Part shown: positions 2,982 through 53,981 of the stretch, in pieces | How the letters are laid out: each line of letters starts with the position of its first letter | How positions within the stretch are numbered: position 1 is the first letter of the stretch | Source of the DNA: Heliobacteriaceae bacterium | GTDB lineage: Bacteria > Bacillota > Desulfitobacteriia > Heliobacteriales > Heliobacteriaceae | Direction of reading: 5' to 3' | NCBI GenBank assembly: GCA_028707535.1 | Contig: JAQWAU010000003.1 | Location: 1-64,000, forward strand | Length of the DNA: 64,000 nt | Notes under the pieces: generated by a model | Database searches by the model: none | What the model saw: the letters and a program-made list of their open reading frames with translations, nothing else | What the model was told of the DNA's origin: nothing | Translations under genes and position numbers: made by a program

Positions 2982-2993
2982 TGCCAGCTCCCC

Positions 2994-4709
2994 CTAACTC
3001 ATCACTTTGACCACGGCAACTTCTTGGTCTTGGGTGTCCATTAGGTGGACGGCACAGGCCATGCACGGGTCGAAGGAGTGGATGGTCCGCAGGATTTCCA
3101 ATGGTTGATTGGGATCAACCATTGGGGTGCCGGTCAGGCAAGCCTCATAAGGTCCTTGTTGGCCCTTGTGGTCATTGGGTGAAGCGTTCCAGGTCGTCGG
3201 AACAATGGCCGAGTAGTTGAAGGTTTTCTTGTTTTTAATGTGGATCCAATGACCAAGAGCACCACGGGGGGCTTCACAGATGCCGGCCCCTTTGGCCTCA
3301 GCCGGCCAAGTAGCGGGATCCCATTTCGATTGGTTAAAGGTTGCCTGGTCGCCGGATTTAATATTGGCAATCAGATCATTAAAGAACCGTTTGAGGTATT
3401 GGCCGGTGATCTTGGTTTCGATCCCCCGGGCGGCTGTGCGGCCAAGGGTGGAGAACAGAGCGGTTGCCGGCAGGTCCAGTTTTTTCAGCACCTGGTCAAC
3501 CCCATCTTTCCACTCCGGCTGATTTTTGGCGTAGCCGAGCAGGCAGCGGGCCAAGGGACCGACTTCCATGGAATGTCCCCGCCACCGGGGTGCTTTTGAC
3601 CAGGAGTATTTTTGATTGGTGTCCAGCTCCTGATATTCGCCCTTGGGACCGGTGTACTTAAATTTGGTTTGGCCTTCAGATGGGTGGAGGCCTTGCTGGC
3701 CGCCTTCATATTCGTACCAGGAGTGGTCGACAAATTCCAGGATTTGTTCGGGGTCTTTCGGATCACACTCCAGAACCTCTTGCAGGTTCTGGTTGAGGAT
3801 TACCCCGCGGGGGAACAGGAAGCTGTCCGGATTGCGGATATCGTCGGTCGGTAAGTCGCCGAAGGACAGGAAATTGCCCATTCCGCCGCCATAAGTGACA
3901 TCCTTGTAGAACGAAGCAATGGTCAACAGGTCCGGGATATAGACTTGTTCCACAAAATCGACAGCTTGGTCAATCAAACCGCTGATCAGGTTCAACCGTT
4001 CAATATTGATCGCATTATCGCCATCCATGACCAGGGAAGCGGGCACACCGCCAACCACGAAATTGGGGTGCGGGTTTTTCCCCCCGAAAATGGTGTGGAT
4101 TTTTACCACTTCTTTTTGCCAGCTTAGGGCCTCCAGATAATGGGCAACAGCCATTAAGTTGCCTTCCGGCGGCAGTTTATAGCCGGGGTGGCCCCAGTAA
4201 CCGTTGGCGAAAATGCCGAGCTGGCCTGATTCGACAAAAGTCTTCAGCCTAGCCTGGGTGTCTTTAAAGTAACCCGGGCTGGATTTGGGCCACCGCGGAG
4301 AGATGGTTTGGGCCAGTTCGGCGGTTGCTTGGGGATCTGCTTTTAGCGCACTGACCACATCTACCCAGTCGAGGGCATGCAGGTGGTAAAAATGCACCGT
4401 GTGGTCCTGTAAATACTGGGCACATAACATAATGTTCCGGATGAGGTTGGCGTTTTTGGGAATCCGGATATTCAAGGCGTCCTCTACCGCCCGGATACTG
4501 GCAAGCGCGTGGGTGGTAGTACAAACACCGCAAATCCGCTGGACAAAGGCCCAGACATCCCGGGGATCCCGGTCTTTAACAATTAACTCCAACCCCCGGA
4601 CCATGGTTCCGCTGCTCCAGGCGTTAATGATTTGGTTGTTCTCGACTTGGGCCTCAACCCGCAGGTGGCCTTCAATCCGGGTGATGGGATCAATGACGAT
4701 TTTTGGCAT
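2994..4709 (-). CDS. hyaB: NiFe uptake hydrogenase large subunit (operon 1)
   Basis: Catalytic subunit of a group 1 membrane-bound uptake hydrogenase (571 aa). The nickel ligands are present: L1 motif RICGVCTTTHALASI near residue 62 and C-terminal L2 motif DPCMACAVH, followed by a 16-residue extension that the maturation protease should remove. The N-terminus MPKIVIDPITRIEGHLR is typical. Its start overlaps the small-subunit stop by one base (TAATG), so translation is coupled and 1:1 expression is expected. It oxidises H2, or evolves it depending on redox partners. The paralogue at 16311-18026 is the same length. Confidence 0.96.
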   Translation of the reverse strand: MPKIVIDPITRIEGHLRVEAQVENNQIINAWSSGTMVRGLELIVKDRDPRDVWAFVQRICGVCTTTHALASIRAVEDALNIRIPKNANLIRNIMLCAQYLQDHTVHFYHLHALDWVDVVSALKADPQATAELAQTISPRWPKSSPGYFKDTQARLKTFVESGQLGIFANGYWGHPGYKLPPEGNLMAVAHYLEALSWQKEVVKIHTIFGGKNPHPNFVVGGVPASLVMDGDNAINIERLNLISGLIDQAVDFVEQVYIPDLLTIASFYKDVTYGGGMGNFLSFGDLPTDDIRNPDSFLFPRGVILNQNLQEVLECDPKDPEQILEFVDHSWYEYEGGQQGLHPSEGQTKFKYTGPKGEYQELDTNQKYSWSKAPRWRGHSMEVGPLARCLLGYAKNQPEWKDGVDQVLKKLDLPATALFSTLGRTAARGIETKITGQYLKRFFNDLIANIKSGDQATFNQSKWDPATWPAEAKGAGICEAPRGALGHWIHIKNKKTFNYSAIVPTTWNASPNDHKGQQGPYEACLTGTPMVDPNQPLEILRTIHSFDPCMACAVHLMDTQDQEVAVVKVMS

Positions 4710-5803
4710 TATCCGTTACCTCCTTTCTGTTCCGATTTTTTCTCTTTGCCTTTAATGACGGTGGTAGCGGCTGTGTGAACAGCGATACCACCCACGGTAA
4801 CGGCGGTGGCGGCCAAGCCGATCTGATCGGCGTTCCACCCGATCTTCATGCCGGGCATGTCGGCCAAGTGGGTATAAAAGGGACCATTATCCCAAAAGTT
4901 TTCTTCGGAACAGCCAATACAGGGGTGGCCGGACTGAATGGGATAGGATGTGCCATTGTTCCACCGGATGGTTGAACAGGAGTTGAAAGTGGTAGGTCCT
5001 TTGCAGCCGAGTTTATAGAGGCACCAGCCTTGTTTGGCCCCTTCGTCGTCGAATTTCTCGGCAAACATGCCGGCATCATAGTAGGCCCGGCGGTTACATT
5101 TGTCGTGGATCCGGTGGTCGTAAAAGGCTTTGGGCCGGCCGGCAAAATCAAGTTCAGGCAGCTTATCGAAAGTTAGATAATGAACAATCACGCCGGCCAT
5201 AACCTCGGCGATGGGCGGGCAACCGGGAACATTAATTACCGGCTTGCCTTTGACGAGTTGGTCAACCGTCTTGGCTCCGGTGGGGTTGGGGTTGGCGGCG
5301 GGTAAACCGCCATTGGCGGCACAGCTTCCCCAGGCGATCACTGCAGCACAGTCTTTGGCGGCTTCGGCTAAAAGTTTGGTTGCCGGTTTGCCACCGATGG
5401 TGCAATACTGACCGTTTTCCCCGGCGGGGATGGAGCCCTCGACACAAAGGATATATTTGCCTTTGTTTTCGGTCATCGCTTTGAGTTTGGCTTCCTCCGC
5501 CTGCAATCCGGCGGCGGCCTGCAATGTCTCGTGATAATCCAGGGAAATCAGGTCAAAAATAACATCTGCTAAAATGGGGTGGCTGGTGCGCAAGAAAGAT
5601 TCGCTGCAGCCGGTGCATTCTTGGAAATGAAGCCAGATGACCGGTGGACGGGGCTTCGTTTCCAAAGCGGCAGCGATTTGGGGGACTGCCGTGGACTCAA
5701 GACCAATCGCGGCGGCCATAAAGGCGCAGAATTGGAGAAAGTCCCGGCGACTCACTTTCCGGCGGTTAAACAGGTCTAGAACTGTTTTTTCCTGTTGGCG
5801 CAT
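4709..5803 (-). CDS. hyaA: NiFe uptake hydrogenase small subunit (operon 1), Tat-exported
   Basis: Electron-transfer subunit with three iron-sulfur clusters (364 aa). It has a twin-arginine leader (SRRDFLQFCAFMAAA, residues 18-32) and a C-terminal membrane anchor (LAATAVTVGGIAVHTAATT), so the mature dimer should face outside. The proximal-cluster motif is ECTGCSESF: a glycine occupies the position that is a supernumerary cysteine in oxygen-tolerant enzymes, predicting a standard oxygen-sensitive [4Fe-4S] cluster. First gene of the operon; ribosome site AAGGAGGGAG. An extended -10 (TGTTATAAT) lies about 80 bases upstream. Confidence 0.95.
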   Translation of the reverse strand: MRQQEKTVLDLFNRRKVSRRDFLQFCAFMAAAIGLESTAVPQIAAALETKPRPPVIWLHFQECTGCSESFLRTSHPILADVIFDLISLDYHETLQAAAGLQAEEAKLKAMTENKGKYILCVEGSIPAGENGQYCTIGGKPATKLLAEAAKDCAAVIAWGSCAANGGLPAANPNPTGAKTVDQLVKGKPVINVPGCPPIAEVMAGVIVHYLTFDKLPELDFAGRPKAFYDHRIHDKCNRRAYYDAGMFAEKFDDEGAKQGWCLYKLGCKGPTTFNSCSTIRWNNGTSYPIQSGHPCIGCSEENFWDNGPFYTHLADMPGMKIGWNADQIGLAATAVTVGGIAVHTAATTVIKGKEKKSEQKGGNG

Positions 5804-5888: not shown

Positions 5889-6017
5889 TGGTATAAATAG
5901 TTTAAAGGGTTTTCGAACAATTTAGATAAATACAAAGGTCTTTCCGCTGACAAGTTTTCATTTTACAAAAAGGATTCTGACAAGTAACGTCGAATTTTAA
6001 ACTATAACAAATAAATT

Positions 6018-6127
6018 GCTCCGAGCCTTGTTTCCTAAAGGGGTATCCCAAGGGAATTTGGCCACCATCACCTAGATGGTCACGGTTTGGTTGGAAACGG
6101 CTAAGCCGCCCGTATTTGGAAAGGAGC
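6018..6127 (+). promoter_or_regulatory. Moco/Tuco riboswitch A
   Basis: The sequence shows the ordered conserved blocks of the molybdenum-cofactor RNA motif: CTCCGAGCC at 6019, TTCCTAAAG, GGCCACC, GGTTGGAAACGG, AAGCCGCCC, and TTTGGAAAGGAG closing at 6126. GCTCC (6018-6022) pairs with GGAGC (6123-6127) as the P1 stem. Three further copies sit on the other strand nearby. A strong terminator follows at 6180-6225, so ligand binding probably ends transcription before the substrate-binding-protein gene. Recognition is by motif; a covariance search was not run. Whether Mo- or W-cofactor is sensed cannot be decided here. Confidence 0.8.
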
Positions 6128-6179
6128 CTTTCTGTTGTGGAAACACAAACGTGTGGTCTTTGTAGCATATTTACTTAAC

Positions 6180-6225
6180 AAAGCCTGCGGAAAGGGTGAT
6201 CTTTTCCGGAGGCTTTTTATTTTTG
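6180..6225 (+). terminator. Riboswitch-linked terminator ahead of the substrate-binding protein
   Basis: A long stem, AAGCCTGCGGAAA pairing with TTTTCCGGAGGCTT, is followed by TTTTTATTTTT. It lies between riboswitch A and the gene at 6303, with no gene between. This is the expected expression platform for transcription attenuation. Confidence 0.85.
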
Positions 6226-6302
6226 GCAAGGGGGTGAAGCATCCGGGTAAAACCTGAATAGTCTAAATGTATTGCTAATTTATAGAAAGGATGACTTGAA
6301 CA

Positions 6303-7403
6303 GTGCGGACAAAGCAATATTTCAAACGTTATGGCCGGCAAAGTGTGGGTTTGTTGCTGGCGGTGACGGTCTTCATGCTGTTTGCGGCGGGGTGTGGTCA
6401 GCAACCAGCGGCTACCCCGCCGGCGGATTCGGGGGTGCAAACCGTAACCGATATGGCCGGCCGGCAAGTAACCCTCCCGGCGAAGATTACCAAGGCTTAC
6501 GGAACCAGTCCCATTCAGACGATCCTGATTTATTGCCTGGCGCCGGAGAAATTAGCCGGTTTGAACAGTGCCCCAACGGATTTGGAGAAACGGATTATGT
6601 TGCCGCAATGTCAAAACCTGCCGGTTTTGGGGGGCTGGTTCGGCCAAGGGAATACCGGGAACATGGAAGAGATCCTGAGGGTCAAACCGGATGTGATTGT
6701 TTGCGGACATACCGGTCAGGAGATGGCTGACCAATTGCAGCAGCAGTTGAATATTCCCGTTGTTTGGGTGGATGACACCATCGAAAAAAATGAAGAAGTT
6801 GTAAACTTCGTGGGGAAAGTTCTGGGGGCGGAGCAACAGGCCGGCAAAATGAACGCTTATTTCCAGAAAACCCAAGAGCGCATTAAGGCCAATTTGCCCC
6901 GGATTGCGGAAGGGAAAAAGGTGAGCGTGTATTATGCCGAAGGACCACAGGGGCTACAAACAGATCCCAAGGGCTCTAAACATGCCGAGTTGCTGGAGAT
7001 CTTAGGGGCGGAGAACATAGCCGAAGTAGCGATCAAGCCCGGATTCGGCCGGAGCGAAGTTTCCATGGAACAGGTCCTTAAGTGGAATCCGGAGGTGATC
7101 ATCGCCGGGGAATTGGAATTTTACCAACAGATCTTAAATGATCAAAAGTGGAAAAACATCAAGGCTGTCCAGGATAACCGGGTTTACTTAGTCCCCCGGG
7201 CACCCTTTAACTGGTTTGACCGGCCGCCGGGAGTAAACCGGATTATCGGCTTAGCTTGGACGGGGCAGATCCTATATCCCAACATTTATTCCTTCGATAT
7301 TAACCAGGAAACTAAGGAATTTTACAAAATTTATTACCACTATGACTTGAAGGATAATGAAGTCACGGAGGTCTTAACCTGTGGCGGGGTCGCAAAAATG
7401 TAG
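6303..7403 (+). CDS. ABC transporter substrate-binding lipoprotein (BtuF/MolA-like, probable molybdate/tungstate)
   Basis: A 366-residue secreted lipoprotein with signal VGLLLAVTVFMLFAAGC (lipobox FAAGC near residue 31) and a periplasmic-binding domain of the vitamin B12/siderophore/MolA class (VQTVTDMAGRQVTLP, then GNMEEILRVKPDVIV). It is the binding partner expected for the FecCD permease and ATPase encoded on the opposite strand at 12827-14637. The leader carries a Moco riboswitch and terminator, which points to molybdate or tungstate rather than iron or cobalamin; in Haemophilus, MolA of the same fold binds molybdate. Start is GTG with AAAGG upstream. Substrate is inferred from regulation only. 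Confidence 0.82.
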   Translation: MRTKQYFKRYGRQSVGLLLAVTVFMLFAAGCGQQPAATPPADSGVQTVTDMAGRQVTLPAKITKAYGTSPIQTILIYCLAPEKLAGLNSAPTDLEKRIMLPQCQNLPVLGGWFGQGNTGNMEEILRVKPDVIVCGHTGQEMADQLQQQLNIPVVWVDDTIEKNEEVVNFVGKVLGAEQQAGKMNAYFQKTQERIKANLPRIAEGKKVSVYYAEGPQGLQTDPKGSKHAELLEILGAENIAEVAIKPGFGRSEVSMEQVLKWNPEVIIAGELEFYQQILNDQKWKNIKAVQDNRVYLVPRAPFNWFDRPPGVNRIIGLAWTGQILYPNIYSFDINQETKEFYKIYYHYDLKDNEVTEVLTCGGVAKM

Positions 7404-7411
7404 CTGACGCC

Positions 7412-7466
7412 GAAAAAAGAGGTCCTCTTCCTACCATAATTAGGTAGGAAGAGGACCTTTTCCCTT
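7412..7466. terminator. Bidirectional terminator between convergent genes
   Basis: A perfect 16-bp stem (7420-7435, AGGTCCTCTTCCTACC, with 7443-7458) is flanked by A-rich and T-rich tracts on both sides. It ends the lipoprotein gene from the left and the DUF2325-like gene from the right. Confidence 0.9.
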
Positions 7467-8990
7467 TTAAGCCAACAGGTCTTTCCGGCGGTAAACGGTT
7501 TTGCCCCCGGAAAGACTGGTTGCTACCGTTTGCAGGATTGTGGGCAGGTGGATGTGCCGGGAAAAGAAAACCGGCTTTTCTTCGGTAATGGCATGTTCTT
7601 TAATTAGCCACATGGCGGTATGGGAAATGTGTTGCGTCAAGATGACCAAAACGTCACACCGGTTAAGCATTCTCGCCCATTCCGGTTTACGGGCATCACT
7701 GCAGAGCAACCGGCAAGGGTATGTTTTGGGGTCGGCAGGATTGTTTCGCACCCCGCCAAAGATGCCTACCGTCAAGCCGTGCAGGGTGGTGAGGGCTACT
7801 TCCCGGTCGGAGGTTGCCGGTAGCCGACTACCGGCGGTGGCGACTTCCTGTAACACTGCCGGTGGTGGGGGAGCAGGTTGCAGTTCTTTGATTTGGCTCC
7901 TTAGTTCACGATTTAAAGCTTTTAGGTCGCGAATTTTCTGGGCTTGGTCTGACGGAGGAGTAACCGCTGGGAACCGCCGGTCTTTCTGCAGACGCCGGTT
8001 TTCTTGGTTGGCCTGGGAGAGTTGGCGCCCCAGGCCGGTCAGGTGGTCTTGTTGCCGGGCAATGGTTTTTTGCAACCGGGTGATGGTGTTCCGGGTTTCG
8101 GCCAATTCGGTTTTCAAGCGGCGGGAATAGGCCATAAACCGGGAGCCGGTATCGAATGGGGAGATCAGGTTAAAAAGTGCTCTATTGCGGATGGGTTCAA
8201 GATTTGGTACCACGGGAAAACCGAGCAGAACAAAGCTCAACATTGTCCGGCCGAGCATTCTTTCCAGTTTGGCCACATTTAATTTTTGATAATAAAGACC
8301 TGGAATCAGCAGTAACTGCACCGTGAAAGAGACGATAGCATGGAAAAGAAGCTCCAGTTTTGACGGCGGAAAGGTGGCAATGAAGCAATCCCGGACCTTG
8401 GCGATTAGTTTCAAGTATCGCTTTTTGGCTTTGCCCGCAGTGCCTGAACCGACTTTGGCCGTGGGGGAAGGAAGGTCCTGGGGGAGCATGTTCAGTACCT
8501 TAAGCACCTCGAGGAATTCCCCGAGATCCATTTCCGTGATGATTTGGGGCCAGTGAATGCTGAAATAGGCTCGACACCGGGACAAGAAGGCTTGTTGACT
8601 GCTCGCCCATAAGGCTTCTTGCCGGTGCCACTGGGCGGTGAATTCCTGTTGTTGGGCCCAGGTGCGGGTTATTGGAAACACTCCGGGATGGCCGACTACC
8701 GGTACCTCCGAAAAACCAATCTGGTAGCTCCGGGTTTCCCGGGGTGTACCGTTGTCGTCGGTGAACTTTAATTTGACGTGTGTAGCCGGCCGGGTAACCG
8801 CACAGCAGCTAATGGCCGGGATCGGATACAGTATTTTGCCAATTAACATCCGGGGGTCGTTTGGCGCCATCTCCCGGGCCGGTGGCGACGGCAGGGTTAA
8901 CTGCTGATTTTTTTGACAATAAGGACATTGCCGGGATACCACCGGTACTAACCGGAAATCCGGCATAAAGGCCAGTTGGGTTATTTCCAC
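7467..8990 (-). CDS. Coiled-coil protein with C-terminal DUF2325-like domain, under Moco riboswitch
   Basis: No experimentally characterised family was recognised for the whole 507-residue protein. Near residue 20 is a CPYCQKNQ zinc-binding pair; ISCCAVTRP follows near residue 58. Residues about 280-380 form a long charged coiled coil (ELAETRNTITRLQKTIARQQ and on). The last 90 residues resemble DUF2325: VGIFGGVRNNP, then CDVLVILTQHISHTAMWLIK. No signal peptide; probably cytoplasmic. The GTG start is 8 bases from a Shine-Dalgarno that is the 3' strand of Moco riboswitch B, so translation should fall when cofactor is plentiful. This suggests a role in Mo/W acquisition, handling or cofactor use, but the biochemical activity is unknown. 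Confidence 0.75.
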   Translation of the reverse strand: MEITQLAFMPDFRLVPVVSRQCPYCQKNQQLTLPSPPAREMAPNDPRMLIGKILYPIPAISCCAVTRPATHVKLKFTDDNGTPRETRSYQIGFSEVPVVGHPGVFPITRTWAQQQEFTAQWHRQEALWASSQQAFLSRCRAYFSIHWPQIITEMDLGEFLEVLKVLNMLPQDLPSPTAKVGSGTAGKAKKRYLKLIAKVRDCFIATFPPSKLELLFHAIVSFTVQLLLIPGLYYQKLNVAKLERMLGRTMLSFVLLGFPVVPNLEPIRNRALFNLISPFDTGSRFMAYSRRLKTELAETRNTITRLQKTIARQQDHLTGLGRQLSQANQENRRLQKDRRFPAVTPPSDQAQKIRDLKALNRELRSQIKELQPAPPPPAVLQEVATAGSRLPATSDREVALTTLHGLTVGIFGGVRNNPADPKTYPCRLLCSDARKPEWARMLNRCDVLVILTQHISHTAMWLIKEHAITEEKPVFFSRHIHLPTILQTVATSLSGGKTVYRRKDLLA

Positions 8991-8998
8991 TGGATGAC

Positions 8999-9109
8999 TC
9001 TCCTTTCCAAAAACGGGGGGCTGAACCGTTTCCCGTCCAACCCTGACCTGGCTTAAGCAGGTGGCCCAGACTTCATAGATGGTCTTCCTTAGAAGTAAGG
9101 GCTCGGAGA
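8999..9109 (-). promoter_or_regulatory. Moco/Tuco riboswitch B (internal, translational)
   Basis: On the minus strand: CTCCGAGCCC, TCTAAGG, GGGCCACC, GGTTGGACGGGAAACGG, CAGCCCCCCGT, TTTTGGAAAGGAG. It begins 16 bases after the fmdE-type gene and ends 8 bases before the GTG of the DUF2325-like gene. The closing strand GGAAAGGAG is also the ribosome site of that gene, so P1 formation should hide it. No terminator hairpin lies between aptamer and gene, unlike the other three copies. Confidence 0.78.
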
Positions 9110-9125
9110 TTGCTTATATTTAAAG

Positions 9126-10121
9126 TTAACTATGGGGACTGGTTTTCGGCAAGTCTGCCAGATAGGCAGCGGTCATGCCACAAACGTGGTCACAGAACCG
9201 GCGCCGTTCCGGTGATTCCCGGTTACCCAAGGTGGTGGTCAGTGTCCGGCAGTTCGTGGACCCGAAAAGCATTAGGAAGCTGCGCTTGAAAACTTCAACC
9301 GCTGATTCCGGATTGGTTTTCAGGAGGCCTAAGACTAATTCCCCGGCGGCAAAGGCAGCACAGGTTCCGCCACCGGTGGTGCCTCCCCGCCAAGCCGCCA
9401 ACATGGGGATTAGGCCCGGCAGGTTGGGAATAACCTTAAAGTCGGTCAAGGCCTGGATGACGGCTTGGCCGGCGTTTAGTCCCGCTTGGTGGTATGTTTG
9501 GGCTTTTTCACGGGCCAGAACCGAAATATCTTCCGGGTTTTGGTCTTCTGCTTTTCCGGCCGGCCGGTAATAGTCAGGTCCTACACAGCCCCGGCATAAA
9601 CAACGGTCACCGATCATTACTTCCCGTGCGTCGTTGATCCCCTCACCACAAACGGAACACATTACCCGGCGCACCGGCTTGCCTGGTAGATCTTCAGGGG
9701 CAATTGTCACCACTACTTCTTCCAGGCGAAGCAACTCTTCATCAGGAATAATCCGGTAAGCGTCGAGGTACGGGTTGGCGGAATCGGGACAATACTGCTT
9801 GGCCAGTTCCCGGGTGCCTTCCGGTACCCATACCCGGACTGCTTTCCGGGTGTTCAGGTCGACAAACGTAGCCGCCATTTTGCCGTAGTCAACGTGTTTC
9901 AAGGTGCGCCGGCCTAACTTACAACCGGTGACCGAGTGAATCGCATCGGTGGCACAGCGGTCAATTTCCACGTAGACAATCAGGTTGCGGTATTTTTTCG
10001 GTTCGGTAATCCCGAGCCAGCGCAAGGCGGCCATACTAATCCTGACCCCCAGGATTTGGCCGGCACAGAGATGGCCGTGGTAAGCGACCGCTTCCTCCAG
10101 CAAAACCTCAAAACTTTTCAT
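9126..10121 (-). CDS. FmdE-family protein fused to a C_GCAxxG_C_C-like redox domain
   Basis: The N-terminal half (331 aa total) is FmdE: AYHGHLCAGQILGVR near residue 13, with the conserved His and Cys, then a zinc-finger pair VMCSVCGEGI and CLCRGCVGP near residues 178-205. FmdE is known as an accessory protein encoded with molybdenum formylmethanofuran dehydrogenase and is common in anaerobes without that enzyme. The C-terminal 110 residues resemble the putative redox-active C_GCAxxG_C_C family: GGTTGGGTCAAF, FGSTNCRTL, and CDHVCG. The usual first cysteine of that domain (NCxxA) is replaced by alanine (NAGQA). The second ATG (10121) has better spacing from GGAGG than the first (10124). Last gene before riboswitch B. 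Confidence 0.8.
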   Translation of the reverse strand: MKSFEVLLEEAVAYHGHLCAGQILGVRISMAALRWLGITEPKKYRNLIVYVEIDRCATDAIHSVTGCKLGRRTLKHVDYGKMAATFVDLNTRKAVRVWVPEGTRELAKQYCPDSANPYLDAYRIIPDEELLRLEEVVVTIAPEDLPGKPVRRVMCSVCGEGINDAREVMIGDRCLCRGCVGPDYYRPAGKAEDQNPEDISVLAREKAQTYHQAGLNAGQAVIQALTDFKVIPNLPGLIPMLAAWRGGTTGGGTCAAFAAGELVLGLLKTNPESAVEVFKRSFLMLFGSTNCRTLTTTLGNRESPERRRFCDHVCGMTAAYLADLPKTSPHS

Positions 10122-10135
10122 CATCAATCCTCCAG

Positions 10136-10885
10136 TTAAAGTGTCAGGCCTTTTCTGGCAATATTGACACAGCGGGCTGCCGGGCGAAAACTGCGGAACC
10201 CGCCGCCTTCGGCGAGGCAACGCCAAACAAGTTCGGGATTCTCGACAACCAATCCCCCCAGGATATCCACCCCGAAATCAAACATTACCGGGCTTAGGGG
10301 GGTGCTGGGACCGAGCAAGACGGTCACAGCCTTGCGCGATAATTCCAAGAGCCGGGGCATCGTTTTATTGATTAGGGTCGAAGCGGTAATGAGCACGACA
10401 TCTTGTTCCGGTAATAAGTATTCCAGGGCGGTGTCCGGCAGGTCACCATCGTGCGGTTGCCGCTCAAAAACGGTGAGGATGGTATTTTGCCGCAGTTGTT
10501 CCATGTGGGGGAAATGACCGATTATCCCCACTTTTTTCCCCCGGGAAAGGTCCAGGATAAAATCGAAGGCACTGATATCCGGTAGTTGGGTCAGTCCTTT
10601 GCCGCTTAACTGTTCGACTGCCTTGGGGGTGTTTAAGCAGGAGTTGATTGCCGCCAGGCCGATGGCCGCCTCGGTGAAGTTCCAAGACTTGATGAGGCCG
10701 GCAAGGTCTCTAAGTTCTCGCCCCTGCAGGGCGCCGGCCAATGTTGTTTCCTTTCCCGAACGGGGAACCGAAAGGGCCAGACCCAAGGTTTCCCCTTGCA
10801 CGGCGGTCCACCATAAGCCGGCCAGCACCCTTTGGGCTTTGCCCGGGGTGGTGGTTTCCAGCAGATGATCATACAAGTCCCACAA
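10136..10885 (-). CDS. DUF364 (putative heavy-metal-chelation) protein, copy 2
   Basis: A 249-residue DUF364 protein. The C-terminal Rossmann-like domain is clear: KVGIIGHFPHMEQL near residue 117, DVVLITASTLINKTM, TVLLGPSTPLSP, and the end motif GGLVVENPELVWRCLAEGGG. The N-terminal part is a shorter DUF4213-like region. A structure of a family member led to the suggestion of heavy-metal chelation, but no reaction is proven. TTG start with AAGGAG nine bases upstream. It is paired with a second, longer DUF364 gene 13 bases upstream; the two are diverged, so they may form a heterodimer or act on different intermediates (inference). Confidence 0.85.
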   Translation of the reverse strand: MWDLYDHLLETTTPGKAQRVLAGLWWTAVQGETLGLALSVPRSGKETTLAGALQGRELRDLAGLIKSWNFTEAAIGLAAINSCLNTPKAVEQLSGKGLTQLPDISAFDFILDLSRGKKVGIIGHFPHMEQLRQNTILTVFERQPHDGDLPDTALEYLLPEQDVVLITASTLINKTMPRLLELSRKAVTVLLGPSTPLSPVMFDFGVDILGGLVVENPELVWRCLAEGGGFRSFRPAARCVNIARKGLTL

Positions 10886-10898
10886 GTGCGTTCACTCC

Positions 10899-11735
10899 TT
10901 AATATGCCGGTTCGATTACGGTGCGTTCTACTGATTTGCCGAACAAGTGGTAACCTGATCCCCCTTCGCTTAGTACCGCCAAGGTCTCATCCGGTTTGGT
11001 TACTTCGATGCCTCCCAAACGCGTTACTCCCCGCTGAAACAAGGGTCCCGGCAACATACCGGCGGTTGGGCCGACGACCACCGCACCGGCCTCCGGCTTT
11101 TTCATCGCGAGAATTGTTTCCAGGGAGTCATTGAGCAGGGTAGTGCCGGTAATAATCAGCAGATCGGTGGCGCCGACAACCTCTGCCGCTTGTTCCGGCG
11201 GAACATAATACGGCAGCTCGTCAGGCTTTAAGGTCCGGGGATCCAATTCGAGGATCGCGAAAGGCTTACCCCGCTTTTTTAAAAGGCGGATGTAGGGAAC
11301 CAAAGCACCGACTACCGTGACTTGCGCTTGTTCCGGGATGGGAAAGTCATCCAGGGGGTCGCGGCCGTACCGGATTATGTAGTCCGGCGGACTAATCTGC
11401 CGGCAAGTCGTGGATAAGGCGTTAATTACGGCAATGGCCAAGGCTTTCTTGATCGGGGAACCTTGGCCTGATTCCGCCAGCAAACTGGCGACACTTTTGC
11501 CCCGTAAGGCCCCGGGATTGGGCATTACCCGGGCTGAGCTAGGGCAGCATACTGCTTCCGGGATTGACTTAATCGGGGTAAAACACATGCCGCCGGTTTG
11601 GTTGCTGAGCTTAACCCCGGTAAAAAACAAACCGATTACGGCCTGTTCCAGCCGCAAATCCGCGTAATCTTTGCCCAGCGATTCCTGCAGACCGGCAAGT
11701 ACTGCCGCAATAATGCCCGGTTTTACATCACCCAC
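10899..11735 (-). CDS. DUF364 (putative heavy-metal-chelation) protein, copy 1
   Basis: A 278-residue protein with DUF4213-like N-terminus and DUF364 C-terminus (VTVVGALVPYIRLLKKRG near 135, DLLIITGTTLLNDSL, VVVGPTAGMLPGPLFQRG, GGIEVTKPDETLAVLSEGG). Unlike copy 2 it carries a cysteine group at GGMCFTPIK and EAVCCPSS, which could bind metal. GTG start with AGGTGGTG upstream. It sits in the riboswitch-controlled operon between a methyltransferase and copy 2. Its placement after a metal-type ABC transporter supports a role in handling the imported oxyanion or metal, but this is inference. Confidence 0.87.
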   Translation of the reverse strand: MGDVKPGIIAAVLAGLQESLGKDYADLRLEQAVIGLFFTGVKLSNQTGGMCFTPIKSIPEAVCCPSSARVMPNPGALRGKSVASLLAESGQGSPIKKALAIAVINALSTTCRQISPPDYIIRYGRDPLDDFPIPEQAQVTVVGALVPYIRLLKKRGKPFAILELDPRTLKPDELPYYVPPEQAAEVVGATDLLIITGTTLLNDSLETILAMKKPEAGAVVVGPTAGMLPGPLFQRGVTRLGGIEVTKPDETLAVLSEGGSGYHLFGKSVERTVIEPAY

Positions 11736-11756
11736 AATAAAACACCACCTGTAGAA

Positions 11757-12791
11757 TTAACAGCAGCGCCGGGTAAGGTCTGCCGCCGTTTTTTTCGTTG
11801 CCAGACAAAGCTTGGAGACGCCAAAGATGCTGGGGATATCCGTAATCACCGGCGGGGTAAACCCGGCTTGTTGCAGCAAGCCGGCAAACCGGTCGGGGTG
11901 GCAAAGCGGGTGGCCCAAACTTTGCAAGGATTTAGTCAGCTCGTTTAAACCATTAGTCATTATACAACCGGGGCTGCAAAACCAGTGGTTTAAAACCAGC
12001 AATCCACCCGGTCGCAGTGCCTGGTAGAACCGGGCAAAAATACCGGGTAAGTCCTTACGGAATTGATATAAAACATGGGAAGCAAGCAAAAGATCGGCGC
12101 CTTGTCCCCAATCAGCAGTCTTTAAGTCTCCGGCGACGGTATGTAAACGGGAAGTTAACCCAAATTCCGCGATGTTTTGCCGGGTAAAGGGGATGAATCC
12201 GGGTTGGTCGAAAATTCTGCCGGTAAGCTCCGGGTGGACTTCACAAAGGGCAATCGCGTACAACCCGTGGCCACCGCTTAAGTCCAGCAACGATTTGGCT
12301 TTGGCAAAGCCCGGCCAAGCAATGACCGCATTGGTTACCGCCTGGACTTCACCCCGCAGGGCCTGCTGGTTCAAGGCCCGGAAGTTCTCCTGGTTTGGAC
12401 CGGGCGATAAACCGGCAAACTGGTCTTGGGTTAAGATTTCCCCTAATTGCCGCCACGACGGGTCTTCACCCAGGTTTTTCAGATAGTCTCCTTGATAGGA
12501 CGGGTTGCTGCGGACGAAAAAAGTGGCGGCTAATTGGGTATTCGCAAATAAACCTTCGTTACTGTCGAGCAGACCCAATTCAACTAATGCTCGCAGATAG
12601 CTGCGGATCAACATGCCGTTTATTTTCAGGCCGGTCGTGATTGTGTCCAATGAACTTGGTCCATTGCTGGCCAACCAATCAAACAGGTTAAGGTCAACGG
12701 CGGATTTTACGACCTGAAAGGCTTTAAAGCCTTCTAAAATCCGGTCGATCATCACCACACTGCCCGGAACTTGCCGGTTCATGAGAAACAT
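11757..12791 (-). CDS. SAM-dependent methyltransferase (O-methyltransferase-like) in Mo/W operon
   Basis: A 344-residue class I methyltransferase with an N-terminal winged-helix dimerisation region (FDWLASNGPSSLDTITTGL) and the SAM motif SLLDLSGGHGLYAIALCEV near residue 178, followed by GRIFDQPGFI and ASHVLYQFRKDLP. The layout resembles the acetylserotonin/CrtF O-methyltransferase group, though the substrate is unknown. The extreme C-terminus is RRCC, an unusual vicinal-cysteine tail that could bind metal. ATG start with GGGAGGAG upstream. Its position between the ABC transporter ATPase and DUF364 genes suggests modification of a metal-binding or cofactor molecule (inference). Confidence 0.82.
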   Translation of the reverse strand: MFLMNRQVPGSVVMIDRILEGFKAFQVVKSAVDLNLFDWLASNGPSSLDTITTGLKINGMLIRSYLRALVELGLLDSNEGLFANTQLAATFFVRSNPSYQGDYLKNLGEDPSWRQLGEILTQDQFAGLSPGPNQENFRALNQQALRGEVQAVTNAVIAWPGFAKAKSLLDLSGGHGLYAIALCEVHPELTGRIFDQPGFIPFTRQNIAEFGLTSRLHTVAGDLKTADWGQGADLLLASHVLYQFRKDLPGIFARFYQALRPGGLLVLNHWFCSPGCIMTNGLNELTKSLQSLGHPLCHPDRFAGLLQQAGFTPPVITDIPSIFGVSKLCLATKKTAADLTRRCC

Positions 12792-12826
12792 TTAAACTCC
12801 TCCCAAGTTATCGTGTATATAATCGG

Positions 12827-13618
12827 TTAAGCAAGTAAGGGGACACAGACCTTGATTTCCTGCCGGGGTTTTTCCCTGATCTGGGCGGAAACCACCTTGA
12901 TCCTGGCGGCATAAAGGTCGCTGAGGCTGGTGTCGGTAACGATTTCGTCCGGGTTGCCGATGGCGAGAATTTTACCTCCTTTCATGATGGCCACTTTGTT
13001 GCAGGCTAGGAAAGCATGGTTGGGAAAATGGGAAGTCATAATAATGGCGAATTCGGCCCGGGCAAGCTCGTTGATAATCTTCAGGATGCGGGTCTGGTTG
13101 CCGTAGTCCAGGCTGGCGGTTGGTTCGTCCATAATCAGCCAGGCTGACTGTTGGGCCAAGGCCCGGGCGATCAACACCAGTTGCCGCTCACCACCGCTGA
13201 TCTCGCTAAACGGCTTTTTGGCTAAGTGGGAGATGCCGACATCGGCCAGGGCGGCCTGGGCAATCTCCTTGTCCCGGGGTGTTGGGGTGGCGATGGCCTT
13301 TAAGTGGGGGTTGCGGCCCATCAAGACCATATCCAGGACTTCATAGGGAAAAACCGAGGTGGTGGCCTGGGGCACATAAGCGACCGCTCTGGCCAATTCT
13401 TTGGGGGTCAAGCTGGTACTGTCCCGGCCACCGATCCGGATCTTGCCTTGTTTCATTTTGTTGATCCCCAGCAGACAGCGTAATAAAGTAGTTTTCCCGG
13501 TGCCGTTAGGGCCCAAAAGGCACAAAACATCCCCTTTAGCCACGGAAAAAGAGATCCCGTTTAAGAGGTTGGGCTGACCGGGATAATTAAAACACAAACT
13601 TTCGACGACGAAACTCAT
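12827..13618 (-). CDS. ABC transporter ATP-binding protein (FepC/BtuD-type; probable molybdate/tungstate)
   Basis: A 263-residue ATPase with Walker A GPNGTGKTTLLRC, Q-loop YVPQATT, signature ISGGERQLV, Walker B WLIMDEPTA and the switch histidine (TSHFPNH). It energises the FecCD permease whose stop overlaps its ATG (ATGA). Start at 13618 was preferred over the ATG six bases upstream because the ribosome site GAAGGG abuts the latter. Family members import haem, siderophores, B12 or molybdate; the shared Moco riboswitches favour Mo/W. Confidence 0.9.
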   Translation of the reverse strand: MSFVVESLCFNYPGQPNLLNGISFSVAKGDVLCLLGPNGTGKTTLLRCLLGINKMKQGKIRIGGRDSTSLTPKELARAVAYVPQATTSVFPYEVLDMVLMGRNPHLKAIATPTPRDKEIAQAALADVGISHLAKKPFSEISGGERQLVLIARALAQQSAWLIMDEPTASLDYGNQTRILKIINELARAEFAIIMTSHFPNHAFLACNKVAIMKGGKILAIGNPDEIVTDTSLSDLYAARIKVVSAQIREKPRQEIKVCVPLLA

Positions 13619-14637
13619 GTCCATCCCTTCTTTACTTTTGATAACAAAAAGATAAAAAACGGGGCGCCGATGATGGCGGTAAGAATCCCTAAGGGAATCT
13701 CTACACTGCTGGCGTTGCGGCAAATGTTGTCAACGAGCAGTAAATATCCGCTACCCAATAAAAGCGAGGCCGGCAGCAGCACCTGGAAGTTGGGACCGAC
13801 CAACATGCGGGCCATATGGGGCACCAAAAGGCCGACCCACCCGATGATCCCGCTGATACTGACCGCCGCCGCCGTCATCAGGGTGGCACAAAGGACAATG
13901 ATTGCCCGGATCCGGGTGATGTTGACCCCGAGGGCGATTGCTTCCTCTTCACCGATGGACATAATATTAACTTGCCAGCGAATGAGGGACAAGACGATGA
14001 TGGAAAGGACAATCGGGACCAAGACGAACTGGACATCGGTGGTACCGACTTTGTTTAAACCGCCCATCAACCAGAAGGTAATAGCCGGCAAGGTATCCAA
14101 GGGATCAGCCAGGTATTTGACGATGGATAGCAAAGCTTGAAAAAGCGCGGAAATGACCATCCCGCCCAAGACCAGGACAATAATGGAGTTGCGAGCAAAA
14201 AGCCGGCTGATCAGATAAGAGGCGCCGACTGCCACTAAGGCGAAAATGAAGGCCATTAACTGGACCGCCAACCAGGGATAATGCAGGAGCATTCCTAAGG
14301 CGGCGCCAAAGCCGGCCCCGGCCGAGACACCCAAAATGGCGGGGGAGACCAGGGGATTTTTAAACAAACTTTGGTAGGCGGCCCCGGATACGGACAAGGC
14401 GCCACCGACCAAGATCGCCGCAATAATCCGGGGAAACCGCACTTGTAACACAACGGTCTCCATGGTATCGGTCCAGGTTTTCGGCACCGCAAAAAACTTG
14501 GCGGCCAAGATGGCAATTACCGTTTGAGGTGAAATCGGGTAACGCCCCAGGAGAAAAGACACGAAGAAAATTACAATCAAAATCACCAGAAGCACGAATA
14601 TTTTGAAATGGACTCCGGTAATTCGAGATAGGAACAT
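13615..14637 (-). CDS. ABC transporter permease, FecCD/BtuC family (probable molybdate/tungstate)
   Basis: A 340-residue membrane permease with about ten helices and typical FecCD motifs: FPRIIAAILVGGALSVSGAA near residue 75, NPLVSPAILGVSAGAGFGAA, a cytoplasmic coupling region IGEEEAIALGV, and GWVGLLVPHMARMLVG. The ATG at 14637 follows GGGAG. It is the first gene of the riboswitch-controlled operon, preceded by two tandem Moco riboswitches and two terminators. The cognate binding protein is encoded apart, on the plus strand at 6303. Confidence 0.92.
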   Translation of the reverse strand: MFLSRITGVHFKIFVLLVILIVIFFVSFLLGRYPISPQTVIAILAAKFFAVPKTWTDTMETVVLQVRFPRIIAAILVGGALSVSGAAYQSLFKNPLVSPAILGVSAGAGFGAALGMLLHYPWLAVQLMAFIFALVAVGASYLISRLFARNSIIVLVLGGMVISALFQALLSIVKYLADPLDTLPAITFWLMGGLNKVGTTDVQFVLVPIVLSIIVLSLIRWQVNIMSIGEEEAIALGVNITRIRAIIVLCATLMTAAAVSISGIIGWVGLLVPHMARMLVGPNFQVLLPASLLLGSGYLLLVDNICRNASSVEIPLGILTAIIGAPFFIFLLSKVKKGWT

Positions 14638-14668
14638 TTTTTTTACTCCCTGTTGAAATCGCCTGTTC

Positions 14669-14706
14669 ACGAAAAGAAAAACCCAAGAAGGGATACCTTC
14701 TCGGGT
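14669..14706 (-). terminator. Terminator after Moco riboswitch C
   Basis: On the minus strand ACCCGAGAAGG pairs with CCTTCTTGGGT, followed by TTTTTCTTTT. It lies between riboswitch C and the permease start, so it is the expected off-switch of that aptamer. Confidence 0.85.
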
Positions 14707-14730
14707 CAACAGACCGAAAAATTGCGGTAT

Positions 14731-14845
14731 CCTCCTTTCCAAACACGGGGGGCTAGCTGGTTTCCCGGCCAACCGGACCGGCGGATAAAGCCGGTGGCCC
14801 CAGTTTCATAAAAACTAAGTTTCCTTAGAAACAGGGGCTCGGAGG
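14731..14845 (-). promoter_or_regulatory. Moco/Tuco riboswitch C (promoter-distal of a tandem pair)
   Basis: Minus-strand blocks in order: CTCCGAGCCCC, TTTCTAAGGAAAC, GGGGCCACC, a GGCTTTATCCGCC hairpin, GGTTGGCCGGGAAACC, TAGCCCCCCGT, TTTGGAAAGGAG. The conserved blocks match copies A, B and D while the variable stems differ, showing compensatory variation. A terminator follows at 14669-14706. Confidence 0.8.
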
Positions 14846-14860
14846 GAATATGCGGTTTAA

Positions 14861-14910
14861 AAACAAAAATGGTTTTGAAAAGGTGATCGTTACCCTTCGC
14901 AAAACCATTA
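14861..14910 (-). terminator. Terminator between the tandem Moco riboswitches
   Basis: Minus strand: AATGGTTTTG with following AGGG pairs with CCTTTTCAAAACCATT, then TTTTTGTTTTT. Upstream bases GATCGTT (in 14921-14930) can pair with AACGATC (14884-14890) inside this stem, giving a plausible antiterminator. This makes riboswitch D an independent attenuator ahead of C. Confidence 0.8.
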
Positions 14911-14929
14911 GTTAACCATGGAACGATCA

Positions 14930-15046
14930 TCTCCTTTCCAAAGTGGGGGGCTTGCCGGTTTCCCGGGCAAACCCAGACCTGCCGCGACGGCAGGTGGCCT
15001 GACCGTCATAAGGTGAAACACCTTTTAGACGAGAAAGGCTCGGAGA
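14930..15046 (-). promoter_or_regulatory. Moco/Tuco riboswitch D (promoter-proximal of a tandem pair)
   Basis: Minus-strand blocks: CTCCGAGCC, TCTAAAAGG, GGCCACC, hairpin CTGCCGTCGCGGCAG, GGGTTTGCCCGGGAAACCGG, AAGCCCCCC, CTTTGGAAAGGAG. Its own terminator lies at 14861-14910 before riboswitch C begins. Two complete aptamer-terminator units in series should give tighter or more digital repression of the transporter operon. Confidence 0.8.
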
Positions 15047-15068
15047 TTTATGTAAACATCTTGCCTAT

Positions 15069-15097
15069 AGCTTAAAGGGTCCGGACAATTTCGTCAA
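15069..15097 (-). promoter_or_regulatory. Possible promoter of the Mo/W transporter operon
   Basis: On the minus strand TTGACG (15097-15092) and TAAGCT (15074-15069) are 17 bases apart. The -35 is good and the -10 weak. A transcript from here would begin about 15 bases before riboswitch D. Confidence 0.35.
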
Positions 15098-15111
15098 GGA
15101 CAAGTTTGAGC

Positions 15112-15504
15112 TTACTTTTCTCCGGCTATCCGGTCTTGTTCAAGCCGGATCAGCAGGCCGGTAAAGTGTTTATCAAAAGTATCATCCACATGGAGAAGGG
15201 CGTCTTGGTGGAAAAGCTGAAATTGACGCAGCATTTCCCGGCCTTCGGGGGTGAGGTTGGTGCCCCGTTCCCGGCTCCCCGGGTGACGTTCCACCAAAGG
15301 TATTTTGAGCCGTTTTTCGGTAGCCGTAATTTTGCCCCAAGCGGCCCGGTAGGACATCCCGAGAACCGCAGCCGCCTGGTTGATCGAACCGGTCTGGTCG
15401 ATCGCCATGAACAGCCGGGCCCGACCTAGACCGAAAACTACTTCCCCATCGGCTTCGAGCCAGATTTTTGATTTTACTTTTAATTGTGGCAAACCGGAGG
15501 CCAT
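15112..15504 (-). CDS. ModE-type DNA-binding regulator lacking the molybdate-binding domain
   Basis: A 130-residue winged-helix protein matching the N-terminal domain of ModE: WLEADGEVVFGLGRARLF, DQTGSINQAAAVLGMSYRAA, AWGKITATEKRL, HPGSRERGTNLTPEG. Full-length ModE carries two Mop domains that bind molybdate; here the protein ends after the helical dimerisation segment. It may sense nothing itself, may bind metal differently, or may need a partner. The ATG at 15504 has AAAGGGG upstream. It lies just ahead of the riboswitch-controlled operon, so that operon is its most likely target. It has its own promoter at 15589-15617. Confidence 0.85.
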   Translation of the reverse strand: MASGLPQLKVKSKIWLEADGEVVFGLGRARLFMAIDQTGSINQAAAVLGMSYRAAWGKITATEKRLKIPLVERHPGSRERGTNLTPEGREMLRQFQLFHQDALLHVDDTFDKHFTGLLIRLEQDRIAGEK

Positions 15505-15532
15505 GGAATTCCCCTTTCCCGATGCAAACGGC

Positions 15533-15578
15533 AAAAAAATGCGGGCGGGTGTACCGCCGGGGTGAACCGGCGGGCCGC
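15533..15578 (-). terminator. Leader hairpin with T-run ahead of the ModE-like gene
   Basis: On the minus strand CCGCCGG (15573-15567) pairs with CCGGCGG (15560-15554), with outer GCGG/CCGC pairing, and a TTTTTTT run follows at 15539-15533. Lying between the promoter and the gene, it looks like an attenuator or partial terminator. No known aptamer was recognised around it. Confidence 0.45.
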
Positions 15579-15588
15579 ACGTAATTCT

Positions 15589-15617
15589 ATTATACCACAT
15601 CGTTTCGATTCGTCATC
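15589..15617 (-). promoter_or_regulatory. Promoter of the ModE-like gene
   Basis: On the minus strand a perfect TATAAT (15594-15589) is preceded, after 17 bases, by GATGAC. It starts immediately after the stop of the cytochrome gene at 15619, so the regulator need not rely on the hydrogenase transcript. Confidence 0.55.
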
Positions 15618-15618: not shown

Positions 15619-16296
15619 TCAGGTCCTGTTTAAGTCCTTATACTTCCAGCCGGTAATGATCGAGGACATGGTACCATCTTTGGTGAGCAGGTCGTGGCGG
15701 ATGCACAAGTAAAGGTGAATGGTGACGAAAACAACAAAAGCCCAAGCAAACAGGTGGTGAAAGTAGCGGGCATAGGGCATGCCGCCTAAGGCGGTAATTA
15801 CCCAGGTGAACGAGGCGAACAGGGCGCCGTCGGGGACGATGGCGGCGTAAAGGGCAAAACCGGTGACAATCATGAACAGGGTGGCGAACCAGAGAAAAAA
15901 GAAATAGGAGAGTTCCGCGAGGGGATTGTGGCCGGGAAAGTCCTCTTCTTCTTTTTCCAGCAGCAGGTAGAAACGGACGGTACGCCAAAGTGAGGCCCAA
16001 AATTGCCGGGTCCAAGGCTGGTACCGGAACCGGGAGTAAGCATTACCGGCAATCCACCAGTAAATACGGAACAGAAAGTTGAAGATAAAAATGTAGGCGG
16101 CAACCATATGGATATACACCATGTTGCCCATGACAAAGGAGAATGTGGCATCCCCGGCGGTGTTGACCGGGCCGAAGAAAGGCCGGGCGATATAAATGCC
16201 GGTGAAAAACAGTACCCCGATTGCCAAGGCGTTTACCCAGTGGTAGAGGCGGATCGGCAATTGCCAGATATAGACCATTTCGTGGGTAACTTTCAC
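15619..16296 (-). CDS. hyaC: NiFe hydrogenase b-type cytochrome subunit (operon 2)
   Basis: A 225-residue membrane cytochrome b, paralogous to the one at 2304-2981 (IWQLPIRLYHWVNALAIGVL, FFTGIYIARPFFG, YARYFHHLFAWAFVVFVTIH, YLCIRHDLLTKDGTMSSI). It anchors hydrogenase 2 and passes electrons to quinone. The GTG at 16296 was chosen over the GTG nine bases upstream: AGGAGG overlaps the upstream codon, spacing to 16296 is eight, and the resulting product aligns with its paralogue from residue 1 and has the same length. Confidence 0.92.
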   Translation of the reverse strand: MKVTHEMVYIWQLPIRLYHWVNALAIGVLFFTGIYIARPFFGPVNTAGDATFSFVMGNMVYIHMVAAYIFIFNFLFRIYWWIAGNAYSRFRYQPWTRQFWASLWRTVRFYLLLEKEEEDFPGHNPLAELSYFFFLWFATLFMIVTGFALYAAIVPDGALFASFTWVITALGGMPYARYFHHLFAWAFVVFVTIHLYLCIRHDLLTKDGTMSSIITGWKYKDLNRT

Positions 16297-16310
16297 GGTG
16301 GCCACCTCCT

Positions 16311-18026
16311 TTAATTCAGTACGGTTACCCGGGTGATTTCTTTCTTTTCACAATCGAGCAGGTGGATGCCACAAGCCAAACAAGGGTCAAAAGAATGAAT
16401 GGTGCGCAAAATTTCCACGGGCTGGTCGGGATTGGCCAAGGGGGTTCCGATCAGGGAAGCCTCGTAAGCACCACGCTGGCCTTTTTCGTCGCGGGGTGAT
16501 GCGTTCCAGGTGGTGGGGACGACCGCCTGGTAGTTGAAAGTCTTGCCGTTTTTAATGTGGATCCAGTGTCCCAAGGCCCCCCGCGGGGCTTCACAGATCC
16601 CTACCCCTTTACAATCGGCCGACCAGGTTCCCGGATCCCATTTGGCCGGATTGAAGGTGGCAATATCCCCTTGTTGGATATTGGCGATCAGTTCATCGTA
16701 GAATCGCCGCAGGTAGTGGACGGTCAGTTTGGTTTCAATCCCCCGGGCGGCGGTCCGGCCAAGGGTGGAGAAAAGGGCGGAAACCGGTAGTCCCAGTTTG
16801 GTCAAGACCAGGTCAATGGTGTCCTTCCATTCCGGCATCCCTTTGGCGTACGCAACGACACAGCGGGCCAAGGGTCCGACTTCCATGGGGTGGTCCCGCC
16901 ACCGGGGCGCTTTGAGCCAGGAGTATTTACCGTTCAGGTCCAGTTCCTGGTATTCACCTTTGGGACCGGTGTACTTGAGCGTGGTTTCCCCTTCCCAGGG
17001 GTGGCGTCCCGGCGAATCACCGCTGTATTCGTACCAGGAGTGGTCAATATATTCTTTGATTTGCTCGGGGTCTGTCGGATCACACTCGAGGACTTCGCTT
17101 AAATTCCGGTTCAGGATGACACCCCGGGGGAAAAGGTAGCTGTCCGGGTTGCTGATGTCATCGGTGGGCAGGTCGCCGAAGCACAGGTAATTGGGCAGAC
17201 CGCCGCCGTAAGTGACATCCTTATAAAAGGAAGCAATCGCCAAGAGGTCGGGAACGTAGACCTGTTCCACAAAGGCGGCGGCTAGTTCAATCATTTGGTT
17301 AACCAGGTTTAACCGTTCGATATTGATGTTGTCGTCACTGTTCGGGTCGAGGGAGCAAGGGACACCACCGACCAGGAAGTTGGGGTGGGGGTTCCGGCCG
17401 CCGAAAACGGTGTGGATTTTCACAATGTCTTTTTGCCAGGTAAGGGCCTCCAAATAGTGGGCCACAGCCAGTAAATTAGCTTCCGGAGGCAGCTTATACG
17501 CGGGATGGCCCCAGTAACCGTTGGTAAAGATGCCGAGCTGGCCGGAATCAACGAGGGCTTTCAAACGGTCCTGGGTATCCTTGAAATAACCGGCGGAAGA
17601 CCGGGGATTCCCGGGGGATACTGTTTGGGCGAGGGCGGCGGTAGCTTTCGGGTCGGCTTTGAGGGCATTAACGACGTCAACCCAGTCCAGGGCATGCAGG
17701 TGGTAAAAGTGGACGACATGGTCGTGGATAAGTTGGGTACAAAACATGATGTTCCGGATCAGGTTGGCGTTTTTGGGGATCCGGACTTTGACGGCATCTT
17801 CCACCGCCCGGACGCTGGCCATGGCGTGGACTAAAGTGCAGACCCCGCAGATCCGCTCGACAAAAATCCAAACATCCCGGGGGTCCCGGTTTTGGACGAT
17901 CACTTCCAAGCCGCGAATCATCGTGCCGGCACTCCAGGCATCGACGACCCGGTTGTTTTCCACCTGGGCCTCGATCCGCAGGTGGCCTTCAATTCGGGTG
18001 ACCGGATCGATCACGATTTTCGGCAT
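16311..18026 (-). CDS. hyaB: NiFe uptake hydrogenase large subunit (operon 2)
   Basis: A 571-residue catalytic subunit, paralogue of the large subunit at 2994-4709 with no length change. L1 is RICGVCTLVHAMASV and L2 is DPCLACGIH followed by a 16-residue cleavable tail containing an extra cysteine (LLDCEKKE). All four nickel cysteines are present. No maturation gene accompanies this operon, so the hupD and hypCD products of operon 1 probably serve it. Start is four bases after the small-subunit stop. Confidence 0.96.
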   Translation of the reverse strand: MPKIVIDPVTRIEGHLRIEAQVENNRVVDAWSAGTMIRGLEVIVQNRDPRDVWIFVERICGVCTLVHAMASVRAVEDAVKVRIPKNANLIRNIMFCTQLIHDHVVHFYHLHALDWVDVVNALKADPKATAALAQTVSPGNPRSSAGYFKDTQDRLKALVDSGQLGIFTNGYWGHPAYKLPPEANLLAVAHYLEALTWQKDIVKIHTVFGGRNPHPNFLVGGVPCSLDPNSDDNINIERLNLVNQMIELAAAFVEQVYVPDLLAIASFYKDVTYGGGLPNYLCFGDLPTDDISNPDSYLFPRGVILNRNLSEVLECDPTDPEQIKEYIDHSWYEYSGDSPGRHPWEGETTLKYTGPKGEYQELDLNGKYSWLKAPRWRDHPMEVGPLARCVVAYAKGMPEWKDTIDLVLTKLGLPVSALFSTLGRTAARGIETKLTVHYLRRFYDELIANIQQGDIATFNPAKWDPGTWSADCKGVGICEAPRGALGHWIHIKNGKTFNYQAVVPTTWNASPRDEKGQRGAYEASLIGTPLANPDQPVEILRTIHSFDPCLACGIHLLDCEKKEITRVTVLN

Positions 18027-18029
18027 ACT

Positions 18030-53950: not shown

Positions 53951-53981
53951 ATTAAACACCTCCCTGATCCAGCGATTAGAC

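Follow-up and report, generated by a model that had tools for sequence, protein, structure and literature searches.

Regulons of the Moco riboswitch, the RNA class modelled in Rfam as RF01055 (Moco/tungsten-cofactor riboswitch), place transporter and cofactor genes downstream of the aptamer, occur with tandem copies in Syntrophomonas wolfei and Geobacter metallireducens, and include neither FmdE nor a methyltransferase among the genes mentioned in the text of their description (PMC2408646), in which Regulski et al. tied the P3 stem of the RNA to Moco rather than to the tungsten cofactor. The MolABC importer of Haemophilus influenzae (HI1470-1472) combines a FecCD permease and a BtuD-type ATPase with the binding protein MolA, which carries free molybdate (PMC4031551). 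For DUF364, represented by the structure of Dhaf4260 (3l5o), a link to metal uptake was drawn earlier from genome context, and in the accessible part of the structure paper the family is not tied to the Moco riboswitch (PMC2954201). A further point of comparison is HmdB, a protein of [Fe]-hydrogenase cofactor synthesis, which is resembled by a radical-SAM enzyme of operons related to the one analyzed here. The riboswitch, the importer type and the connection of DUF364 with metals are already known; the literature that was searched yielded no description of the present gene set as a Moco-riboswitch regulon, of its dedicated methyltransferase or of the HmdB-like link, and an earlier listing in RegPrecise or in the supplementary regulon tables of PMC3766115 is possible.

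In the window, a 64,000-nucleotide stretch of a Heliobacteriaceae genome (2.09 Mb, 87.6% complete, with 11 copies of RF01055), the four copies of the Moco RNA motif claimed in the preliminary description were all recovered with the RF01055 covariance model using cmscan, at 74.6-91.1 bits (E-values from 5e-21 to 3.5e-16) and thus well above the gathering score of 36. The model structure, including the P3 stem, is kept in all four aptamers. The first one, RS1 (6007-6142, plus strand, 91.1 bits), precedes the gene of a binding protein, RS2 (8984-9120, minus strand, 88.1 bits) is internal to an operon and begins 6 bases past the FmdE stop codon, and RS4 (14915-15057, minus strand, 74.6 bits) and RS3 (14716-14856, minus strand, 77.2 bits) are the first and the second aptamer, respectively, of a tandem pair occupying 14716-15057. 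We read the locus, with a probability of about 0.6, as a Mo/W acquisition operon which is turned off by the finished cofactor and whose enzymes handle a metal ligand or pass the metal on to the assembly of the cofactor.

The region had been described as one regulated island; its RNAs and its gene set were confirmed, while the single unit resolved into two convergent transcription units. On the plus strand, RS1 is followed by a lone gene of a MolA-like substrate-binding protein (Peripla_BP_2 by Pfam, 6303-7403), which is therefore separated from the permease and ATPase genes located in the opposite unit. The minus-strand unit comprises, in the order of transcription, RS4 and RS3, the FecCD permease (13615-14637), an ABC ATPase of the BtuD/FecE type (12827-13723, likely start near 13624), an O-methyltransferase (Methyltransf_2 with a dimerisation domain, 11757-12791), two DUF4213-DUF364 proteins (protein a, 10899-11735; protein b, 10136-10885), a fusion of FmdE with C_GCAxxG_C_C (9126-10226, likely start near 10124), RS2 and a DUF2325-like coiled-coil protein starting with GTG (7467-8990). 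The permease start was moved from the listed TTG at 14772 to ATG at 14637, since a GGGAG site is present there and RS3 is left untranslated. Between the convergent units the hairpin scan revealed a strong hairpin (7420-7458). Outside the two units, the region is bordered on either side, at 2304-5803 and 15619-19124, by two closely similar minus-strand operons for a [NiFe]-hydrogenase (small subunit, large subunit and cytochrome b), which suggests a duplication around it. Elsewhere in the window, a fluoride riboswitch (RF01734, 54008-54067, 54 bits) is located just upstream of a 609-aa dynamin-type-GTPase-like protein (52154-54067, minus strand), an unusual target for this RNA.

The general promoter and terminator scan performed overall at the level of shuffled sequences, and what is used here are the hairpins immediately 3' of the aptamers in combination with the antiterminator test. 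As computed, the 3' strand of P1 in RS1, RS4 and RS3 is able to pair alternatively with the sequence of a terminator hairpin followed by a U tract. Such hairpins are found after RS1 (6180-6225, plus strand; antiterminator pairing of -22.9 kcal/mol, equalled by 2 of 500 shuffles), between RS4 and RS3 (14859-14909, minus strand; -21.3 kcal/mol, 1 of 500) and after RS3 (14671-14707, minus strand; -18.5 kcal/mol, 19 of 500), the last antiterminator being the weakest of the three and only modestly ahead of shuffles. Judging from these predicted structures, the layout of RS1, RS4 and RS3 is that of a transcriptional off switch. In RS2, which lacks a terminator, P1 contains the Shine-Dalgarno sequence AGGAG, 9 bases ahead of the GTG at 8990; with the ribosome-binding site lying in P1, the predicted arrangement fits translational control of the DUF2325-like gene. 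When Moco is scarce, P1 of RS1, RS3 and RS4 would not be held and their 3' strands would pair with the terminators, after which read-through would enter the binding-protein gene and the operon of FecCD, the ATPase and the enzymes, both steps having in silico support. The RS4-RS3 tandem would act as two terminators in series, and RS2 would gate translation of the DUF2325-like protein separately, inside the operon. In comparison with the described Moco riboswitch regulons, the present locus is distinguished by the combination of tandem terminators and an internal translational aptamer on one operon.

The BtuCDF-like transporter of the preliminary description was borne out by Pfam, which matched the FecCD permease, the BtuD-type ATPase and a class III binding protein. 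The closest PDB matches of the latter, 4pag and 4ovk, are both named only periplasmic binding proteins; MolA (HI_1472), the nearest characterised relative, comes next (E 2.4e-24), far ahead of BtuF. The motifs YYAEG..GL, S.H and FNWFDRPP are conserved in the binding-protein subfamily and unshared with MolA in the alignment, and for this reason it is possible that the imported metal form differs from that of MolA. Along with these motifs, the location of the binding protein in a separate unit, the extra enzymes and the riboswitch control set the present system apart from MolABC. The best scores of the permease and the ATPase were obtained with corrinoid, heme and iron models, as could be expected of a corrinoid, heme or iron-chelate importer placed incidentally under Moco control; however, every such match is under its curated cutoff and the module tracks RF01055 across classes, which makes an importer of this kind extremely improbable.

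Just one further FecCD permease scored above the cutoff in the window's genome, and additional RF01055-associated binding proteins are encoded on its contigs C77 and C78, so that the permease of the window is likely, from these gene counts, to be shared by several binding proteins. On contig C78 of this genome (G000), a second tandem RF01055 pair is followed by a MoeA-like gene and another binding protein (L029, 856-3662). On contig C77, RF01055 is accompanied by a binding protein, a class I methyltransferase, a binding-protein fragment interrupted by N and FmdE, forming a second small cassette (L031, 5581-8925). As for the metal, formate-dehydrogenase-like proteins were noted by eye near RF01055 in this genome, which also encodes an aldehyde ferredoxin oxidoreductase, an enzyme that typically uses tungsten; in view of both, Mo and W may each be relevant for the organism.

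A simpler explanation would be a plain importer of the MolABC type, taking up molybdate or tungstate as free anions, with DUF364 and FmdE serving as cytoplasmic metal chaperones or cofactor-assembly factors, a pterin or protein inside the cell as the substrate of the methyltransferase, and no external chelator involved. It agrees with the binding of molybdate and tungstate by MolA, the relative of the binding protein (PMC4031551). However, the window's genome already encodes an RF01055-associated ModABC for free molybdate, and MolBC-A is a low-affinity system (PMC4031551), which would be odd to derepress in scarcity. Under the preferred reading of a cofactor-repressed acquisition operon, the MolA-like binding protein would hand Mo or W over to the importer formed by FecCD and the ATPase. 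The metal probably arrives as a sulfided or ligand-bound complex and not solely as free molybdate; its ligand would be made or processed by DUF364, the O-methyltransferase and FmdE, which would also free the metal for the assembly of the cofactor. A Mo complex is not required, as MolA itself carries the free anion; our leaning towards ligand handling comes from the importer type, known for large substrates, from the coverage of free molybdate by ModABC and from the tailoring-type companion enzymes. This ligand-handling step by DUF364, the O-methyltransferase and FmdE remains tentative, its odds being somewhat short of even.

The methyltransferase, the two DUF364 proteins and the FmdE fusion proposed from the sequence were all found by Pfam. 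The DUF4213-DUF364 proteins reach 133 and 143 bits against the cutoff of 23 (PF04016). Protein b is close to Dhaf4260 (3l5o; E 4e-42), with which it shares the metal-transport context and six of the nine placeable cleft residues (G37, N83, G129, E148, T174 and T182 are kept; G39, R42 and D180 are changed). The FmdE domain (109 bits against 22.9, PF02663) keeps HGHxCxG, DRCAxDA and two CxxC pairs. The FmdE-fusion query of the contigs of the window's genome yielded two loci only, and both FmdE genes and both DUF364 genes of the genome (2/2 and 2/2) belong to loci with RF01055. The authors of the DUF364 structure suggested a flavin or pterin derivative as the product (PMC2954201); together with a riboswitch that senses the cofactor and an importer type that takes large substrates, this would accord with pterin or molybdopterin salvage, i.e., import of a cofactor fragment and its remodelling by DUF364, the methyltransferase and FmdE. 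Yet the oxyanion genes ModA, ModB and ModC share operons of the relatives and no cofactor binder is as close to the binding protein as MolA is, so salvage appears quite improbable.

The likeness of the last protein of the operon to DUF2325 (PF10087), noted previously, was seen again, at 27.2 bits and thus under the Pfam cutoff of 33.6, which a relative from genome G007 passes with 41.6 bits. CPxC and CC are conserved in this family (C22, C25, C62 and C63 are invariant), and two of its members are located in a ModABC-ModD-nifX region. Two candidates were rejected, namely, the frame L102 4861-6453, picked by eye as DUF2325-like (BLAST E 0.15), and a supposed DUF364 beside the DUF2325-like gene in G002/G006, the sequence of which is a Sel1-repeat protein. 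Of the ModE-type regulator of the preliminary description, the HTH part was retained (15112-15600, minus strand; best match TIGR00637 HTH, 60.1 bits against the cutoff of 98.5), and no molybdate-binding (TOBE/Mop) domain was matched in this 162-aa protein. Its gene lies upstream of RS4-RS3 and hence is not controlled by the tandem aptamers; its membership in the operon is uncertain.

A role in metal acquisition is argued from the recurrence of the gene context. Within the class (83 genomes surveyed), at least 17 of the 50 DUF364 sites outside the window's genome, in 12 genomes, lie within 6 kb of RF01055, against 0.55 expected for uniform placement; the class genomes are related and hence not independent, so this count carries no p-value. 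All six close relatives of the methyltransferase are found within 10 kb of RF01055 (expected 0.14), in comparison with none of the seven remote O-methyltransferases; the methyltransferase subfamily is therefore specific to RF01055 neighbourhoods in the sampled class. The neighbourhood maps contain FecCD, the ATPase and the binding protein together with DUF364, the variable partners being FmdE, a TrmO-FmdE fusion, ModABC, ModD, MoeA, XdhC, other methyltransferases and an HmdB-like radical-SAM enzyme. When 16 operons led by RF01055 were counted by hand, FecCD, the ATPase and the binding protein were present in 15 and DUF364 in 13; this tally restates the maps and is no separate test. The window's arrangement of tandem RF01055, FecCD, ATPase and methyltransferase recurs in the class in L103 (genome G046).

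HmdB-like enzymes are situated within 10 kb of RF01055 in 13 of 16 cases in the class (expected 0.35). These radical-SAM proteins with the CX5CX2C motif occur beside binding proteins (L022 7329-8360, L026, L028, L103, L106 and L177 16409-17473). One of them, from a related operon, scores best with TIGR03957, at 147.7 bits and under the equivalog cutoff of 320.9, and is classified here as HmdB-like, not as HmdB; its gene context is also other than that of HmdB. No HmdB-like gene was found in the window's genome, where the best match (28% identity, 55 bits) was rejected as probably a BioB-type enzyme. Several other associations were observed in the relatives. Nitrogenase component-1-like proteins, scoring under the NifD/K/E/N cutoffs, lie in or adjoin Mo import cassettes (L094 6850-9329, L139 16419-19000, L146 and L147). 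A second DUF364 setting, mostly without RF01055 (L098, L099, L105, L110, L111 and L112), includes a HypB/UreG-like GTPase, an ABC-ATPase-like protein and often NTPase_1 beside FecCD, the ATPase and the binding protein. DUF364 proteins of a divergent subfamily, with scores of about 31-39 bits and a length near 250 aa (L026 13045-13788, L100 5784-6530, L101 5500 and L175 14207-14938), adjoin ATPases and permeases of ABC transporters, Mod-type in L175, near RF01055.

An independent replicate outside the class was obtained from a phylum sample of 250 genomes queried with the FmdE fusion alone, which gave seven hits, all outside the class. Six of these seven FmdE loci have DUF364 alongside, five of the six with FecCD, and in four of the seven (L172-L175) Rfam placed RF01055 upstream of FmdE, DUF364, FecCD, ATPase and binding-protein genes. 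A window-type methyltransferase and additional DUF364 genes are present in L174, where a c-di-GMP-I riboswitch (L174 7085-8207) was also observed, preceding by about 0.9 kb the RF01055 aptamer at the head of the FmdE-DUF364 operon. In L175, an XdhC-like frame stands between RF01055 and FmdE, and the operon runs on into MoaA and ModABC. The set is thus a module recurrent in the phylum, as seen in the class and in the FmdE-chosen loci, and no unique island. Since the gene context repeats across classes, a role in Mo/W acquisition is very probable. Control by Moco-type riboswitches and the attribution of the extra genes to Mo/W metabolism find strong support in the recurrence with RF01055 in many genomes, and the exact part of these genes may be in capture, storage or insertion.

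The same neighbourhoods bear on the plain importer of free anions. The Mod, ModD, MoeA, MoaA and XdhC genes, which share operons in the relatives, form a supporting context for Mo/W metabolism; at the same time, the presence of MoeA, MoaA and XdhC in operons with FmdE, DUF364 and the importer suits chaperones or assembly factors, as do two distant FmdE relatives from other phyla, which adjoin molybdoenzyme-like oxidoreductase genes (by eye) with no importer seen. On the other hand, a chaperone role leaves unexplained why the importer is accompanied by the methyltransferase subfamily and by the HmdB-like enzyme, and on balance we regard the plain importer as unlikely. As to what ligand handling might consist of within the preferred acquisition reading, sulfide converts molybdate to thiomolybdate and minerals (PMC10390477), and DUF364, the O-methyltransferase and, in the relatives, the HmdB-like and nitrogenase-like proteins could, in anaerobes, build or remodel a small chelator that captures Mo or W in competition with sulfide; FecCD would import the complex, FmdE would free the metal, and the Moco riboswitches would silence the whole set. 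No chelator exporter was seen within the window, and we consider this chelator pathway conceivable, if rather doubtful.

Several organisms that use Mo or W have no annotated Mod, Tup or Wtp importer (PMC9246946), and their metal supply is a question on which the module may bear. Its recurrence points to a poorly known route of Mo/W acquisition in anaerobic bacteria. As an RNA whose ligand class is known ties the module to the sensing of the Mo/W cofactor, culturable relatives allow a direct test of what DUF364, FmdE, the O-methyltransferase and the HmdB-like enzyme do.
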